Shown: positions 1,481-25,350 of the stretch, piece after piece | How the letters are laid out: each line of letters opens with the position of its first letter | How positions within the stretch are numbered: position 1 is the first letter of the stretch | Origin: an uncultured Verrucomicrobia subdivision 3 bacterium | GTDB taxonomy: Bacteria; Verrucomicrobiota; Verrucomicrobiia; Limisphaerales; UBA11358 | Direction of reading: 5' to 3' | Assembly (NCBI GenBank): GCA_903833055.1 | Contig: CAILDU010000075.1 | Location: 1 to 39,806 of the forward strand | Length of the DNA: 39,806 nt | The notes under the pieces: model-generated | The model's input: the letters and a program-made list of their open reading frames with translations, nothing else | Told to the model about the DNA's origin: nothing | Databases searched by the model: none | Translations under genes and position numbers: made by a program

Positions 1481-3493
1481 CTACGGCGCATTGGTTGCGC
1501 CAAAAGATTCGCGCCACGGCTGATGGTTTTTGTAGAGTTCCAACCGCTGTTGAATCGGTTCAAGATTTTTTAATTTCAGCGCGTTGGCGGTGTCGAGCGC
1601 GGTTTGCGCGGCCATTTGTGCGTCGTCAAATTTTCCCAGTTCGGCGCAGGCCATGCCGAGCACGTCGAGCACGGTCGGCTGGCGCCCGTTGGCGAGCGCA
1701 TTGGCTTTGGCCGCGAGCAGAAAAGCGTTGTGTCCATCGCGCGTGGCAGGATTTTCCGACGCGGCCAAAACTTGCGCGGTGAAGGTGAGAATCTCAATGT
1801 TGTTTTGGTTAATTCGCAGTGCGGCGCGCAGTTCGTCGAGCGCATTAGTGTCGCGATTTTGGCGGAGATAAATCTTTGCGATTTCAACGTGCGGCCACGG
1901 ATAATGCGGATCGAGTCGCGCGGCTTCGGAAAATTCTTTTAGGGCTTCATCATCCTTGCCAGCGGTGACGAGGGTGAGTCCGAGAACGTGATGCAGCGTT
2001 TGTTTTTGTGGTTCCAAGCGCACCGCTTCACGATGCGCGGCGAGGGCTTCCGTCGGGCGACCAAGCCGGTCCAGCACGCTAGCGAGATTGTGAAAAGGTA
2101 TATAACGGTTGGGTTCGAGGTGCGTGGCGGCGCGATATTGTTCGGCGGCTTCGGGGAGGCGGCCTTGCAGTTCCAGCGCGACGCCGAGATTGTCGCGGGC
2201 GACGTCATTATCGGTGGTCACGGCGAGCGCGTGCTGGAACAGCGTAACGCTGTTTCGCCAATGGCGAAGCTGGTTTTCTGTTGTAATGATGCAGGCGGCG
2301 AGTATGAAAATGGCAGTTCCTGCGAGCAGGAAACTTGGAATTTTAAATCGCGCAGCCAAGTCGCATACGGCAAAAGTGATGGCGATAAAAATGCCGATGG
2401 CGGGCAGATAACTGTAGCGGTCGGCGAACGCGGCACCGCCGACTTGCACAAAACCGATGACGGGAACGAGCATTCCGAGAAACCAAAACCAGCCAGTGAA
2501 TAGATATGGCCGTGTGCGATAAAACCAAATTGCGCCGAGCGAAATGAAAACCAAAAGCGCGACCGGAATCACGACGCTGCTGCCGGGAATTTTTTCTTGG
2601 AGCGGATAAAAAATGGCGAGCTTGGTCGGCCAGAAAGTTTTTTCCAAATACTCGACGTAGGCGAGCGGCACGTTTTTGAGCCGGTAATGTAACGGGACGG
2701 TTGTCAGCGAGACGACCGCGCTGCCGCCGCGCTGCGACTGCGCGAGAAACGTGATGGCGCACGAAGCGGCGGTGACGAGAAAGAATGGGATTTTTTCGAG
2801 GAGTAATTGAAGGTTGAAGGTTGAAGGTTGAAAGTTGCGCGGCTCCGAACCTGCAACTTGCAACTTGCAACTTGCAACCCGCTTGAGCGGCCAGAAGTCC
2901 AGCAGCAGCAGAACGCACGGCAGCGTGACCAACATCGGTTTTGCCATCAGGCCGAGCGCGAATGTTACGAGGCTCCATGCGAAATAAATTTTAGCGCGTG
3001 GATTTTTAGCTGCGGATTCCTCGACGTAACGCGCGTAATTTAGCAAGGCAATCAGCGCGAAAAAAGTGCTCAAGACATCTTTGCGCTCGGCAATCCAAGC
3101 GACGGATTCGACGTGCAGCGGATGCCAAGCAAACAGCGCGGCGATGAACGCAGACGGCCAGATTTTTTTTTTAATCCGAATTAGCAGCGTGAAGAGCAAC
3201 GCCGTATTCGCTGCGTGAAATAAGGCGTTCACGAGATGCGGCCCGGCGGGGTTCAGGCCGAAAACGCCGCAGTCAATCATGTGCGAGAGCCACGTCAGCG
3301 GATGCCAGTTGCTCGCGGCCATCGTGGTGAACGCCCATTTCACGCCCGCCCACGTCACACCGTTTTGCACGATGGATTGGTCGGTGACGTAAAGGCCGTC
3401 GTCATAGACGCAAAAGCTGAACCACGCCACCGGCAGATAGAGCGCGAAGGTGGCGACGGCGAGCAGCAAAGCGATACGGCGCGGCAGCGACAT
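1481..3493 (-). CDS. Multi-TM protein with C-terminal TPR repeats
   Basis: A 670-residue membrane protein with about ten predicted transmembrane segments, then about five tetratricopeptide repeats in the last ~220 residues (for example DNLGVALELQGRLPEAAEQY). The N-terminal part resembles the TMTC/PMT-type glycosyltransferase-like fold (YDDGLYVTDQSIVQNG, HPLHVESVAWIAERKDV), a pattern common in Verrucomicrobia and Planctomycetes proteins named only as TPR proteins. A role in protein O-glycosylation or envelope assembly is an inference. I start at ATG 3493 (MSLPRRIALLLAV), where the first TM segment begins; a longer frame up to 3649 lacks a plausible N-terminus. The gene carries an in-frame repeat at 2807-2877 between two TM segments, encoding a Q/N/S-rich loop. 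Confidence 0.75.
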   Translation of the reverse strand: MSLPRRIALLLAVATFALYLPVAWFSFCVYDDGLYVTDQSIVQNGVTWAGVKWAFTTMAASNWHPLTWLSHMIDCGVFGLNPAGPHLVNALFHAANTALLFTLLIRIKKKIWPSAFIAALFAWHPLHVESVAWIAERKDVLSTFFALIALLNYARYVEESAAKNPRAKIYFAWSLVTFALGLMAKPMLVTLPCVLLLLDFWPLKRVASCKLQVAGSEPRNFQPSTFNLQLLLEKIPFFLVTAASCAITFLAQSQRGGSAVVSLTTVPLHYRLKNVPLAYVEYLEKTFWPTKLAIFYPLQEKIPGSSVVIPVALLVFISLGAIWFYRTRPYLFTGWFWFLGMLVPVIGFVQVGGAAFADRYSYLPAIGIFIAITFAVCDLAARFKIPSFLLAGTAIFILAACIITTENQLRHWRNSVTLFQHALAVTTDNDVARDNLGVALELQGRLPEAAEQYRAATHLEPNRYIPFHNLASVLDRLGRPTEALAAHREAVRLEPQKQTLHHVLGLTLVTAGKDDEALKEFSEAARLDPHYPWPHVEIAKIYLRQNRDTNALDELRAALRINQNNIEILTFTAQVLAASENPATRDGHNAFLLAAKANALANGRQPTVLDVLGMACAELGKFDDAQMAAQTALDTANALKLKNLEPIQQRLELYKNHQPWRESFGATNAP
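2807..2877. repeat. In-frame heptad palindromic repeat inside the TPR gene
   Basis: Four tandem heptamers of the type TTGAAGG (2807-2834) face four of the type CTTGCAA/CCTGCAA (2850-2877) as an imperfect inverted repeat around a 15-base centre. The whole is kept in frame in the minus-strand TPR gene and encodes a loop containing ASCKLQVAGSEP and FQPSTFNLQ. The loop falls between WPLKR and LLLEKIPFF, which normally lie close together in related proteins. It is similar in style to elements at 21700, 24921 and 35632. Confidence 0.75.
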
Positions 3494-3663
3494 GGGATTC
3501 TTGTAAGCGATTTTGGCGGCGGGGCAAAGCGCGATTCGATTATTCACGCAAAAAGTTTTTGCAATTTCCGCCGCTGGCAATGATAATTCGCGCGGCGGAA
3601 AAATGCTCACGCAACCGCCGCTTGGCCAAAACCGGTTCCTCACCACCAAGTTTTTTGAATTTT

Positions 3664-4392: not shown

Positions 4393-4502
4393 AACCACAG
4401 ATGGACACAGATAAACACAGATTGAAAACCGGTGCGGATTTTTGCCGTGGCGTTTTCATTTGTTTTGAAGCCATCCGTGTTCATCTGTGTCCATCCGTGG
4501 TT
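4393..4502. repeat. Inverted repeat of the CACAGAT type between tolQ and tolR
   Basis: The arm at 4393-4422 consists of three ten-base units (AACCACAGATGG, ACACAGATAA, ACACAGAT). It pairs with 4473-4502 at 27 of 30 positions, across a 50-base spacer. It begins directly after the tolQ stop and ends 11 bases before the tolR ATG. It has no ORF. As RNA it would form a long stem inside the tol operon mRNA. Confidence 0.8.
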
Positions 4503-12058: not shown

Positions 12059-12118
12059 TCACGCAAAGTCGCGAAGTCGCAAAGTTAAATTCCTTCGCGT
12101 CTTTGCGCCTTTGCGTGA
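12059..12118. repeat. CGCAAAG-type inverted repeat between murJ and tyrS
   Basis: The arm at 12059-12084 (TCACGCAAAGTCGCGAAGTC onward) pairs with 12093-12118 at 22 of 26 positions across an eight-base centre. Each arm is built from eight-base units of the type CGCRAAGN. A second copy of the same family lies at 29944-30030; one of its arms differs from this left arm at a single position. It sits between divergent murJ and tyrS. Confidence 0.8.
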
Positions 12119-12177: not shown

Positions 12178-13464
12178 GTGAGCATCATTGATGAACTAAA
12201 GTGGCGCGGTCTCGTGGCCGATTGCACGGACGCGGCGGAATTGGAAAAGAAAATCGCCGCGCCCATCACGCTGTATTGCGGCTTCGACCCAACGGCGGAT
12301 TCGTTGCACGTCGGCAATCTCGTGCCGCTGCTCGCGCTGCGCCGGTTTCAATTGCTCGGACATTTTCCAATCGCCGTTGCGGGCGGCGCGACTGGCAGCA
12401 TTGGCGATCCGAGCGGTAAAACTGCCGAGCGACAGCTTCTCACGCAGGAAATTCTTGACCACAACATCGCCAGCGTAAAGGTTCAGTTGGCGAAGTTGCT
12501 CGATTTTGAAACGAAACAAAATCCCGCGCGGCTCGTGGACAATGCCTCATGGACAAAGGGGATTTCGTTTCTCGATTTTTTGCGCGACATCGGAAAACAT
12601 TTTTCCGTCAACCAGATGGTCGCCAAGGAATCCGTCCGCGCGCGCATGGAAGACCGCGACGTCGGCATCAGCTACACCGAGTTTAGTTATATGCTGTTGC
12701 AGGCATTTGATTTCATGGTTTTGTGCCGCGATGCGAATTGCGAATTGCAAATCGGCGGCAGCGACCAGTGGGGCAACATCACGGCGGGCATCGAACTCAC
12801 GCGCAAGAAATTGGGAAAACACGTCTTCGGCCTGACGCTGCCGCTCATCACAAATACCGACGGTTCCAAGTTTGGCAAGACGGCGGCGGGCGCCATCTGG
12901 CTCGATCCGAAGCGCACGAGTGTTTACAAATTTTACCAGTTCTGGATTAACACGGATGACCGCGATGTGATTCGGTATTTAAAATACTTCACGCTGCCGG
13001 AAATCATTTCACGCGAAGAAATTGAATCGCTTGGAAAAAAGCACATCGAAAATCCTGAAGCACGCAGCGCGCACAAGAAATTGGCGGCGGCAATGACGCT
13101 TTTGATTCATGGCAGTAATGCAATGTTAAGCTGCCAAATAGCTAGTGAAATTCTTTTTGGCGGGAGCGTTGAGAAAATTTCCGAAGAAGATTTTAGCGAG
13201 ATTGTCGGCGAAGTGCCGACGAAGGAAATCGAGAAATTAAAATTGGATGGCGCGGGCATTCCGTTGGTCGAACTTTTGGTTCATGCCGGTTTGTCGCCGT
13301 CCAAAGGTCAGGCGCGAAAAGACATAGAAGGCGGCGGCGTGAACATCAACAATGTCCGCGAAGTAAATGTGGCGCGCGCCGTGACTTCAAGCGATTTGCT
13401 TTTCGGCAAACACATTCTTCTCCGCAAAGGCAAAAAGAATTACGTCGTCGTGACGGCGAAGTGA
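12178..13464 (+). CDS. tyrS: Tyrosyl-tRNA synthetase
   Basis: Charges tRNA-Tyr in the cytoplasm. The 428-residue class I synthetase starts at GTG 12178. It shows the HIGH-like HVGN (44-47) within GFDPTADSLHVGNL, the tyrosine-binding YMLLQAFDFM (171-180) with QIGGSDQWGN (191-200), and the KMSKS-equivalent KFGKT (231-235). A C-terminal S4 RNA-binding domain is seen as SKGQARKDIEGGGVNINN. The length is typical of bacterial TyrRS. Its cognate tRNA-Tyr gene is about 8 kb away on the minus strand. A palindromic element that could terminate transcription lies immediately downstream. Confidence 0.96.
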   Translation: MSIIDELKWRGLVADCTDAAELEKKIAAPITLYCGFDPTADSLHVGNLVPLLALRRFQLLGHFPIAVAGGATGSIGDPSGKTAERQLLTQEILDHNIASVKVQLAKLLDFETKQNPARLVDNASWTKGISFLDFLRDIGKHFSVNQMVAKESVRARMEDRDVGISYTEFSYMLLQAFDFMVLCRDANCELQIGGSDQWGNITAGIELTRKKLGKHVFGLTLPLITNTDGSKFGKTAAGAIWLDPKRTSVYKFYQFWINTDDRDVIRYLKYFTLPEIISREEIESLGKKHIENPEARSAHKKLAAAMTLLIHGSNAMLSCQIASEILFGGSVEKISEEDFSEIVGEVPTKEIEKLKLDGAGIPLVELLVHAGLSPSKGQARKDIEGGGVNINNVREVNVARAVTSSDLLFGKHILLRKGKKNYVVVTAK

Positions 13465-21572: not shown

Positions 21573-21658
21573 TGGTGGTAGGTAATGGATTCGAACCATT
21601 GAAGGCGTAAGCCGACAGATTTACAGTCTGCACCCTTTAGCCACTTGGATAACCTACC
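21573..21658 (-). tRNA. tRNA-Tyr (anticodon GTA)
   Basis: The minus strand folds as a class II tRNA. The acceptor stem is GGTAGGT (5' end at 21658) with ACCTACC, followed by discriminator A and an encoded CCA ending at 21573. The anticodon loop ACTGTAAA gives anticodon GTA. There is a long variable arm, as in bacterial tRNA-Tyr, and a T-arm with GGTTCGAATCC. The T-arm stem and acceptor are fully paired by eye. A T-run follows the CCA directly. Confidence 0.97.
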
Positions 21659-21699: not shown

Positions 21700-21772
21700 C
21701 AAGTTCAAAGTTCAATTTTTAGGGTCAAGCGAAGTGCGTGCGAGAGAAACTTTGAACTCCGAACGCTGAACC
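21700..21772. repeat. GTTCAAAG-type repeat pair upstream of ffh
   Basis: A short arm CAAGTTCAAAGTTCAA (21700-21715) faces CTTTGAACTCCGAACGCTGA and onward (21750-21772) in inverted orientation. The pairing is imperfect. The style is the same as the heptad elements inside the TPR gene and the MEKHLA gene. It lies between tRNA-Tyr and ffh, 15 bases before the ffh ATG. Confidence 0.5.
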
Positions 21773-21786
21773 GTTAACCTATCCGG

Positions 21787-23130
21787 ATGTTCGATTCGTT
21801 AAGCACCAAGCTCCAGAATGCGTTTAAGAATTTGCGCGGCCTCGGAAAAATTTCCGAGAGCAACGTCGGCGACGCCTTGCGCGAAGTGCGGATGGCGCTG
21901 CTCGAAGCCGATGTGAATTTCAAAGTCGCGCGCGATTTTATCGAACGCGTCAAAGTAAAATCGCTCGGCGCGGAAGTCATCACGAGCGTCCAACCCGGCC
22001 AGCAAATCATAAAGTTTGTCAGCGACGAACTGACCGATTTGCTCGGTTCGCAAAATGCCGCGCTCAATCTTTCTGGTAATCCAACCTGCCTGATGATGGT
22101 CGGTTTGCACGGCGCAGGCAAAACGACCTCGTCTGGAAAACTCGCAAAACTCCTGAAAAAACAAGGCCGCGCGCCGTTGCTCGTCGCGGCGGATGTGTAT
22201 CGTCCGGCAGCGATGGATCAATTGGAAACATTGGGCAAACAAGTTGACGTTCCGGTTTTTCTGAAACGCGGCGAGACGGACGTTTTGAAAATCGCGCGCG
22301 AGGCGTTGGATTTTGCGAAGCTCAATAATTGCAGCGTCGTCATCTTCGACACGGCTGGCCGTTTGCAAATTGACGAACCGCTCGTGCAGGAGCTTGTGCA
22401 TCTGCGTGACCTCGTGAAGCCGCAGGAAATTTTGCTCGTGCTCGACGCGGCGACTGGTCAAGAAGCGGTCAACGTCGCCACGCATTTCGATTCCGCGCTC
22501 AACATTACAGGTTCAATTTTGACCAAGCTCGACGGCGACGCGCGCGGCGGCGCGGCGTTGAGCATGAAGTCCGTTACCGGCAAACCGATTAAGTTCGCGG
22601 GCGTCGGCGAGAAGCTGGACGAGTTCGAGCCGTTTCATCCAGAGCGAATGGCGTCGCGGATTCTCGGCATGGGCGATGTCGTGAGCCTTGTTGAACGCGC
22701 TGCCGAAACCGTCAACGAAGAAGACGCCAAGCGCATGGAAGAAAAAATGCGTAAAGGCGAATTCTCGCTGGAAGATTTTCTAGAACAGTTGCGCGCGATG
22801 AAGAAGCTCGGCTCTCTGGAAAGCATCATGAAGATGTTGCCCGGCGGCGGCGATGCGCTGAAGCAGATGGACATCGGCAAACAGGAAAAAGAATTCAAGC
22901 GCATGGAAGGCATGGTTTGCGCGATGACGTTGAAAGAACGCCGCAATCCGGTGATTCTTAACGCGAGCCGCCGGCGGCGCATCGCGGCGGGCAGCGGCGT
23001 GACGGTGACGGAGCTAAACACGATGCTGAACAAATTTTTCCAGATGCAGACGATGATGAAAAAGATGGGCAAGATGTCCAAGATGATGGGCAAAATGGGC
23101 GGCGCAATGCCGGGGATGTTTCGGAAATAA
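21787..23130 (+). CDS. ffh: Signal recognition particle GTPase Ffh (SRP54)
   Basis: Binds signal sequences of nascent membrane proteins and targets ribosomes to FtsY. The 447 residues comprise an N domain (1-90), a G domain with P-loop GLHGAGKTT (106-114), AADVYRPAAMDQL, DTAGR (188-192) and TKLDGDARGG (from 246), and a Met-rich M domain (about 300-447: MKKMGKMSKMMGKMGG). The length is normal. A terminator follows. The M-domain helix-turn-helix carries the RRRRIAAGSG SRP-RNA contact region. The SRP RNA gene is not seen in the window. Confidence 0.96.
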   Translation: MFDSLSTKLQNAFKNLRGLGKISESNVGDALREVRMALLEADVNFKVARDFIERVKVKSLGAEVITSVQPGQQIIKFVSDELTDLLGSQNAALNLSGNPTCLMMVGLHGAGKTTSSGKLAKLLKKQGRAPLLVAADVYRPAAMDQLETLGKQVDVPVFLKRGETDVLKIAREALDFAKLNNCSVVIFDTAGRLQIDEPLVQELVHLRDLVKPQEILLVLDAATGQEAVNVATHFDSALNITGSILTKLDGDARGGAALSMKSVTGKPIKFAGVGEKLDEFEPFHPERMASRILGMGDVVSLVERAAETVNEEDAKRMEEKMRKGEFSLEDFLEQLRAMKKLGSLESIMKMLPGGGDALKQMDIGKQEKEFKRMEGMVCAMTLKERRNPVILNASRRRRIAAGSGVTVTELNTMLNKFFQMQTMMKKMGKMSKMMGKMGGAMPGMFRK

Positions 23131-24825: not shown

Positions 24826-25350
24826 GTGAGCGAAATCTGGCAAAGCGAATCCGTCATCGACCAAACGCAAACCATCGCGCGCAGCCTAAAGCATTTTACC
24901 GGGCGCGAGCTTCTGCCGGAAAGTTCGGAGTTCAGAGTTCCGCGTTCAGAGTTGCCGGACGCTGAACTCGGAACCCTGAACCCTGAACTACGATTGCGTC
25001 TCGCGGAAAAAGTTTTTCACGCGCCGTTCGTGCTCGTTTCGCACGGAACGGAAGCCGACCCCATTTTGAATTACGGGAACGCGAGCGCGCTGGCACTTTG
25101 GGAAATGTCGTGGGCCGAACTCACGCGCACGTCCTCGCGCCTGACCGCCGAAGCGCCCAACCGCGAGGAACGCGCGCGGCTGCTGGAAATGGTAAAAATG
25201 CACGGATTCATTGACGATTATTCCGGCATCCGCATTTCAAAAACCGGCCGCCGTTTCGAAATTTCCCGCGCGACCGTCTGGAATTTGATTTCCGCCAACG
25301 GCCAGCCGTGCGGTCAGGCCGCGCTGTTTTCGCAGTGGGAATTTCTTTGA
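24826..25350 (+). CDS. MEKHLA-domain protein
   Basis: A PAS-like MEKHLA domain of unknown ligand, found alone in bacteria and on plant HD-ZIP III factors. The 174-residue protein starts at GTG 24826. It shows typical family strings: FVLVSHGTEADPILNYGNAS, ALWEMSWAELTRTSSRLTAE, RARLLEMVKMHGFIDDYSGI and FEISRATVWNLI. Between the N-terminal helix (TGRELL) and AEKVFHAP it carries about 25 extra residues encoded by a palindromic repeat at 24921-24990. Role is possibly redox or light/small-molecule sensing, but unproven. Confidence 0.85.
   Translation: MSEIWQSESVIDQTQTIARSLKHFTGRELLPESSEFRVPRSELPDAELGTLNPELRLRLAEKVFHAPFVLVSHGTEADPILNYGNASALALWEMSWAELTRTSSRLTAEAPNREERARLLEMVKMHGFIDDYSGIRISKTGRRFEISRATVWNLISANGQPCGQAALFSQWEFL
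24921..24990. repeat. In-frame GTTCAGAG palindromic repeat inside the MEKHLA gene
   Basis: A 30-base arm at 24921-24950 (AAGTTCGGAGTTCAGAGTTC onward) pairs with 24961-24990 at 24 of 30 positions across a short centre. It is built from seven- to eight-base GTTCAGAG-type units. It lies wholly in the reading frame and encodes EFRVPRSELPDAELGTLNPE, a loop not expected in MEKHLA domains. It resembles the arm inside cusA (35632-35661), which encodes a nearly identical STLNPELA. Confidence 0.8.

Follow-up and report, generated by a model that had tools for sequence, protein, structure and literature searches.

The MEKHLA-domain gene of an uncultured Verrucomicrobia subdivision 3 bacterium contains, in frame, a 68-nt near-palindrome composed of seven-base units (GTTCnG plus one free base), which belongs to a repeat family found both inside and between genes of the same genome. 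The window referred to below is the whole stretch of DNA analysed (39,806 nt, contig CAILDU010000075.1). These observations quite probably reflect a process in Verrucomicrobia subdivision 3 resembling that of the Rickettsia palindromic elements (RPEs), in which the elements are built of heptads and differ between species. In the mechanism proposed here, the sequence at 24922–24989 would belong to a non-autonomous palindromic repeat dispersed through the genome, its copies being about 62–79 nt long with arms of about four seven-base units. Copies would have spread as whole hairpins, landing between and inside genes; the genic copies to survive would be those that keep the frame, contain no stop and lie in a permissive loop, and they would be translated as an extra, probably disordered, peptide. 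The gene and its repeat are as follows.

24826–25350, plus strand: MEKHLA-domain gene, GTG start, 174 amino acids, residues about 33–55 derived from the repeat; PF08670 match with E = 8e-51 (protein residues 13–173 to profile positions 3–143 of 143)
24922–24989, no strand assigned: heptad palindrome of family A (GTTCnG + N), four units per arm, lying in frame within the MEKHLA gene; recognised as an inverted repeat and as tandem arrays of seven-base units; E = 3e-15 with covariance model R1, this sequence being one of the 11 used to build the model; absent from relatives

The two arms (24922–24952 and 24959–24989) are 31 nt each, 84% complementary and 6 nt apart, which bears out an earlier note, made from the sequence alone, of an inverted repeat of nearly 30 bases in this gene; the in-frame palindromic repeat is real. 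The peptide quoted there for the repeat was also correct and sits within the Pfam MEKHLA match, while the periodicity, given as 7–8 bases, is seven. With spacers of 3–11 nt allowed, this is the sole place in the window where at least 26 of 31 arm positions are complementary, and none was found in five block shuffles. The predicted folding energy is −23.1 kcal/mol as DNA (z −5.5) and −41.5 as RNA (z −6.0), with none of 200 shuffles equal or better in either case, and the folded strand consists of six-pair helices separated by a single mismatch at every seventh base. Such fold scores alone are not discriminating, because a few MEKHLA relatives that lack the insert also fold well at this loop (z to −4.5).

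The comparison with relatives was based on tblastn of the MEKHLA protein against loci of related genomes, one search having matched 36 of 59 genomes (30 loci); the 47 rows obtained included 10 duplicate contigs, recognised by their length, and thus represent 37 distinct relatives. The 17 named relatives are all metagenome-assembled genomes, 11 of them assigned to Verrucomicrobia subdivision 3 or Limisphaerales. The site is without insert in 36 of the 37 (44 rows with a 20-residue gap, and two rows from one contig with a gap of 19), as the earlier note had expected of MEKHLA homologues; a loop shared by all relatives in diverged, non-repeat DNA was thus not what the alignment revealed. In the remaining relative, L061, another palindrome (GTTCAAGCTT...AAGCTTGAAC) at this site encodes an insert of 14 residues. 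When the DNA of six relatives was aligned at the site, the flanks matched and the repeat had no counterpart. The loop measures 28 amino acids in this genome against a median of 8 in relatives, a clear net gain, and the repeat accounts for about 20 extra residues in frame. An AlphaFold model of the protein (38-sequence alignment, mean pLDDT 88.6) places residues 31–50 between two helices at a predicted confidence of 53–58; the best solved-structure matches are LOV/PAS domains.

The following further copies and arrays were located in the window.

21702–21772, no strand assigned: degenerate family A copy, intergenic, between tRNA-Tyr (21573–21658, minus strand) and an SRP54-domain gene (21787–23130, plus strand); E = 0.004
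1481–3649, minus strand: TPR protein gene with a family B insert at residues about 260–282; Pfam match confined to the region following the insert
2805–2872, no strand assigned: heptad palindrome of family B (GTTGAAG / GTTGCAA), in frame in the TPR protein, tandem right arm extending to about 2882; E = 4e-5
12731–12754, no strand assigned: minor array of three seven-base units (TGCGAAT) within an ORF; a second arm is not visible

The copy outside genes that had been reported near 21700 is therefore present, though weak. Repeats of the same type had also been claimed for two other genes; one is clear, namely the TPR gene, albeit with a different seven-base unit, while the second could only be the minor array at 12731–12754. 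A TPR gene elsewhere in the genome (L265) resembles that of the window and has a similar family B hairpin in the corresponding loop, which a conserved EKIPFF segment directly follows, and the hairpin may have become common to both genes through gene duplication.

Many additional copies, in and out of genes, were found in the assembly of this organism (2.75 Mb, 86% complete) by the genome search that the earlier note had recommended. The pattern GTTCnGNGTTCnG gave 50 matches, compared with 3 for its reversed form. Covariance model R1, built from 11 hairpins and with a 68-column consensus, gave at least 43 hits at 26 places with E ≤ 1, and at least 19 places with E ≤ 1e-3, the 11 model sequences included; 150 of 547 candidates were scored, and there are perhaps more places. 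Among the 14 hairpin places of family A that were examined, seven fall within Pfam-matched ORFs, encoding MEKHLA, LeuRS, GlyRS, Der, RlmN, DnaG and a putative RecN-like protein (LeuRS, GlyRS, Der and RlmN are named from solved-structure matches, and the RecN-like label interprets a match to SMC_N). None of the remaining seven lies entirely within an ORF of at least 120 amino acids, and four of them touch an ORF edge. One-arm heptad arrays occur in ORFs matching ArgJ, HisA, Sua5, a glycosyltransferase, a phosphodiesterase, a phosphorylase and a GKRP-type protein, Pfam covering only one side of the array in the last two. The genome contains more than one seven-base family: hairpins of the family B unit are found in the window TPR gene, the similar TPR gene, a RecG-type gene, the 5′ end of a Pta-type ORF and the edge of one further ORF. 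The gene list is free of the mixed match at C25:5913 and of those with two units at C4, C29 and C48, and the places examined are those other than C2 and the two R1 places C188 and C47. As Der, RlmN and GlyRS have one match each in the assembly, the only copy found of each gene carries the repeat, while a completeness of 86% leaves room for second gene copies.

The reading frames of the repeat offer a possible explanation of how such insertions are tolerated. A tandem GTTCAGA array encodes the cyclic heptapeptide VQSSEFR in all three frames, because seven is not a multiple of three, whereas the complement of the array contains TGA in every frame. Tolerance would therefore have two components: the heptad array would supply the same heptapeptide in any frame, and a single base change would remove the TGA of the complementary arm only in the unit where it falls in frame. 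Consistent with the second component, all 10 units with a would-be in-frame TGA in 14 ORFs carry another base (nine share one change), compared with the TGA-changing base in 10 of 57 other genic units and 2 of 32 intergenic units; this supports stop avoidance, a result that is partly forced because ORFs cannot hold a stop. The frame is real in Der, RlmN, GlyRS, LeuRS and HisA, since the sequence flanking the repeat is conserved on either side and keeps one frame throughout. No hairpin among the 14 has more than two of its six frames open, and some have none, so that few random landings in genes would presumably be survivable.

The relation of the repeat to the host sequence varies from gene to gene. 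As in MEKHLA, there is net gain in GlyRS (loop of 24 amino acids, 16 in relatives), and in LeuRS and HisA when compared with solved structures. In Der, the loop is not longer than in relatives (28 amino acids versus a median of 35), and in RlmN it is hardly longer (33 versus 31), although the RlmN protein exceeds one solved structure by 19 residues at the repeat. The event in both genes is replacement-like: the repeat occupies a linker that is variable among relatives anyway and, given the loop lengths, may have replaced linker sequence. Sua5 exhibits no net gap at the repeat against solved structures, and ArgJ has a gap against one solved structure and none against another. Clean insertion everywhere was consequently rejected for Der, RlmN and Sua5, on the basis of loop lengths and the missing net gap. 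The solved-structure alignments of DnaG stop before the insert and have no bearing on insertion. In GlyRS, the loop of the closest relative already contains GGTTCCG...CGAACC; native seeds may thus have been the source from which the repeat grew, or partners with which it recombined, and this sequence would also fit growth in place.

Seven-base arrays recur in the same loops of other species. Loops of Der, RlmN and GlyRS from 29 relatives each and of MEKHLA from 30 were cut by alignment columns (121 rows, threshold 12/14) at four sites, which were picked because this genome carries the repeat there. Arrays of period seven were found in 12 of the 117 loops of relatives (14 of 121 with those of this genome), as opposed to none of 1352 background windows taken from other parts of these genes. 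The remaining periods between 4 and 13 were detected in 0–2 of the 121 loops, and in the background windows in one (period 9), six (period 12) and two (period 13) cases. When loops were cut by text anchors, with 31 of 121 rows lost and a threshold of 13/14, period seven was present in 7 of 90 loops and in 1 of 1277 background windows. Examples from another text-anchored set (7 MEKHLA, 7 RlmN and 7 Der rows lost) include AACATTC, AATCCGC, TCTCAAC and AAGTTTC arrays in GlyRS, hairpins of GTGACAA and AGTGCGG in RlmN, and a GTCAGTA hairpin in Der; the AGTGCGG and GTCAGTA hairpins fold well and are below the array threshold of the loop test. In relatives, these loops are recurrently occupied by other heptad sequences.

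The sequence of the repeat itself is not conserved across the group. The strict hairpin pattern of this genome's type was found in 4 of 59 genomes (this one included), while the palindrome AAGCTnnAGCTTGAAC occurs in 21 of 59 related genomes (e.g. L143 and L153) and is absent from this one; a single repeat common to the whole genus was rejected on these counts, and repeat families therefore seem to turn over. L061 carries one copy of AAGCTnnAGCTTGAAC within its MEKHLA gene, in frame. A phylum-wide search of 288 genomes detected a degenerate GTT-headed seven-base triple in 117, counts being high in some genomes where the control was close to nil (98+102 against 0+1 in one of them); the reversed-pattern control was as high as the signal in several genomes, and the counts are a rough guide.

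The position-specific make-up of the hairpins suggests that those of family A are dispersed copies of one ancestor. In the alignment, which covers 11 of the 14 hairpin places, 8 of 11 hairpins have a base other than G at position 6 of unit 2, compared with 0 of 31 in units 1, 3 and 4 (P = 1.4e-6). The search pattern required two neighbouring GTTCnG units, and units 3 and 4 are hence partly forced; unit 1 is not forced, and the comparison with it alone (8/11 versus 0/9) gives P = 0.0014. A signature of this kind would be unexpected if the units had arisen independently at every site, which supports the common descent of the copies. An unlikely alternative is local birth by polymerase slippage, in which units would expand in place from chance GTTC/GAAC seeds, the second arm would arise by template switching, no moving element would be involved and the heptad length would stem from the polymerase footprint. 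Period seven indeed stands far above all others in the loci of relatives (117 loci, 474 kb), with 11 imperfect arrays against 0–2 for every other period, although this count is not independent of the loop test since 10 of the 11 arrays lie in loci already counted for loops. Tandem one-arm arrays exist (in the Sua5, ArgJ and PNP-type ORFs), the native GGTTCCG...CGAACC of the GlyRS loop is present in relatives, and the footprint idea is in print (excerpts of PMC4679880 and PMC4692102). Nevertheless, slippage would not account for hairpins at unrelated loci sharing the unit-2 signature (8/11 versus 0/9 for unit 1) and the 68-column consensus, and slippage alone leaves palindromes of one sequence at many sites unexplained.

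If copies of a common ancestor were dispersed, they would presumably have moved as hairpins, by means of a host or selfish copying machine. No mobilising gene was found in the analysis. Of the features that define MITEs, terminal inverted repeats and target-site duplication, inverted arms are present and no duplication is evident by eye in the printed flanks, the empty sites being too diverged for this comparison. A REP-type element moved by a host Y1 (RAYT-like) transposase is a very improbable source; the genome has six PF01797 matches, and such enzymes have been proposed to move REPs (excerpts of PMC3733652), yet a heptad cluster lies at none of the six Y1 loci (flanks up to 1.5 kb) and the repeat consensus, which ends in AGTTCAG...CTGAACT, is without a GTAG or CGTC end tag. 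The RAYT link was rejected on the absence of heptad clusters beside these genes. A bolder proposal, distinctly doubtful, is that an active machine of the order writes or copies hairpins of seven-base units of any sequence into DNA; its products would be frame-agnostic coding insertions, each species would have its own unit in the manner of telomere repeats, and protein loops would be repeatedly rewritten. Such a machine would need a templated, reverse-transcriptase-like or hairpin-replicating enzyme.

It is highly improbable that a DNA- or RNA-binding protein recognises the heptads as its sites, with selection maintaining them in and out of genes. The conserved unit core with one free position, together with the copies outside ORFs or at their edges, would agree with this function, but units differ between species, the same loops host different units, and genic copies lie in unrelated housekeeping genes. 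Moreover, there is no covariation between the arms: pairing at positions 5 and 7 in 12 hairpins is no better than with shuffled partners (27/48 versus 26.8 and 17/59 versus 21.9) and does not go beyond composition, and fold covariation as proof of a selected hairpin was thus rejected.

The dispersed repeat favoured here combines features of several known systems. The likeness to RPEs suggested in the earlier note is apt as a way of working. RPEs are described as palindromes of 105–146 bp located between genes and in frame in conserved protein genes of Rickettsia, with an ORF through the element (excerpts of PMC2229807 and PMC10969869). Of the family A hairpin places, 7/14 are in Pfam-matched ORFs, encoding unrelated conserved proteins, and 7/14 are not wholly within an ORF; a stem-loop is present, and the length is only 62–79 nt. 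Compared by description, the elements also differ from RPEs in that the arms consist of tandem seven-base units, the unit sequence varies by species and the host belongs to another phylum. An in-frame palindromic insertion process is supported, although the elements would not be filed as RPEs. One RPE-bearing Rickettsia enzyme is active, according to the excerpts of PMC2229807. The repeat-bearing proteins of this genome may be made and working. Counterparts of RPEs in Wolbachia are cited within the same sources.

Heptanucleotide repeats of other bacteria (Calothrix heptamers, the GGGAATC type of Xanthomonas and Nostoc, and TAACTGA of Beggiatoaceae) resemble the present elements, in the literature excerpts consulted, in their seven-base period, several copies per array and patchy distribution. 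According to excerpts of PMC4679880 and PMC4692102, heptanucleotides outnumber all other long simple repeats in the majority of the surveyed genomes and are attributed to polymerase slippage, they are mainly intergenic while coding repeats favour multiples of three, and an inverted heptanucleotide pair has been reported in Xanthomonas. The elements described here likewise consist of tandem seven-base units; unlike the mainly intergenic direct arrays of these LSSR/STRR repeats, they have paired, inverted arms and a common consensus, and many are in frame in conserved genes (7/14 family A hairpin places inside genes). REP/RAYT, ERIC and Correia elements are also small hairpin repeats, some within genes, and REPs inside genes are already known (excerpts of PMC3733652); the GTAG/CGTC tag and the location beside Y1 genes (0/6) set REP/RAYT apart from this repeat.

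No report of seven-base palindromes in Verrucomicrobia coding genes was found among the matches listed in the open-licence literature, which is weak evidence of novelty, and in the excerpts consulted protein-coding palindromes are described chiefly from Rickettsia. The present lineage belongs to another phylum, comprises many species and has several unit families that repeatedly hit the same loops; it would make the entry and tolerance of such repeats testable by comparison of species, and it points to new protein loops whose origin may lie in the copying of DNA and not in selection on the protein.

Repeats of other kinds were also noted in this genome. At L120:6716–7129, two heptad repeats flank a gene of the 23S rRNA intervening-sequence protein family (PF05635). 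A ten-base tandem repeat of the AACACAGATA / ATCTGTGTTC type recurs in the genome (window 4396–4422 and 4471–4499; L120:5054, L126:11071 and L129:1–48), the two window arrays being about 50 bases apart in seemingly opposite orientations. Finally, adjacent eight-base tandem arrays of CGCAAAGT and CCTTTGCG form an apparent inverted pair at 12062–12115 of the window.
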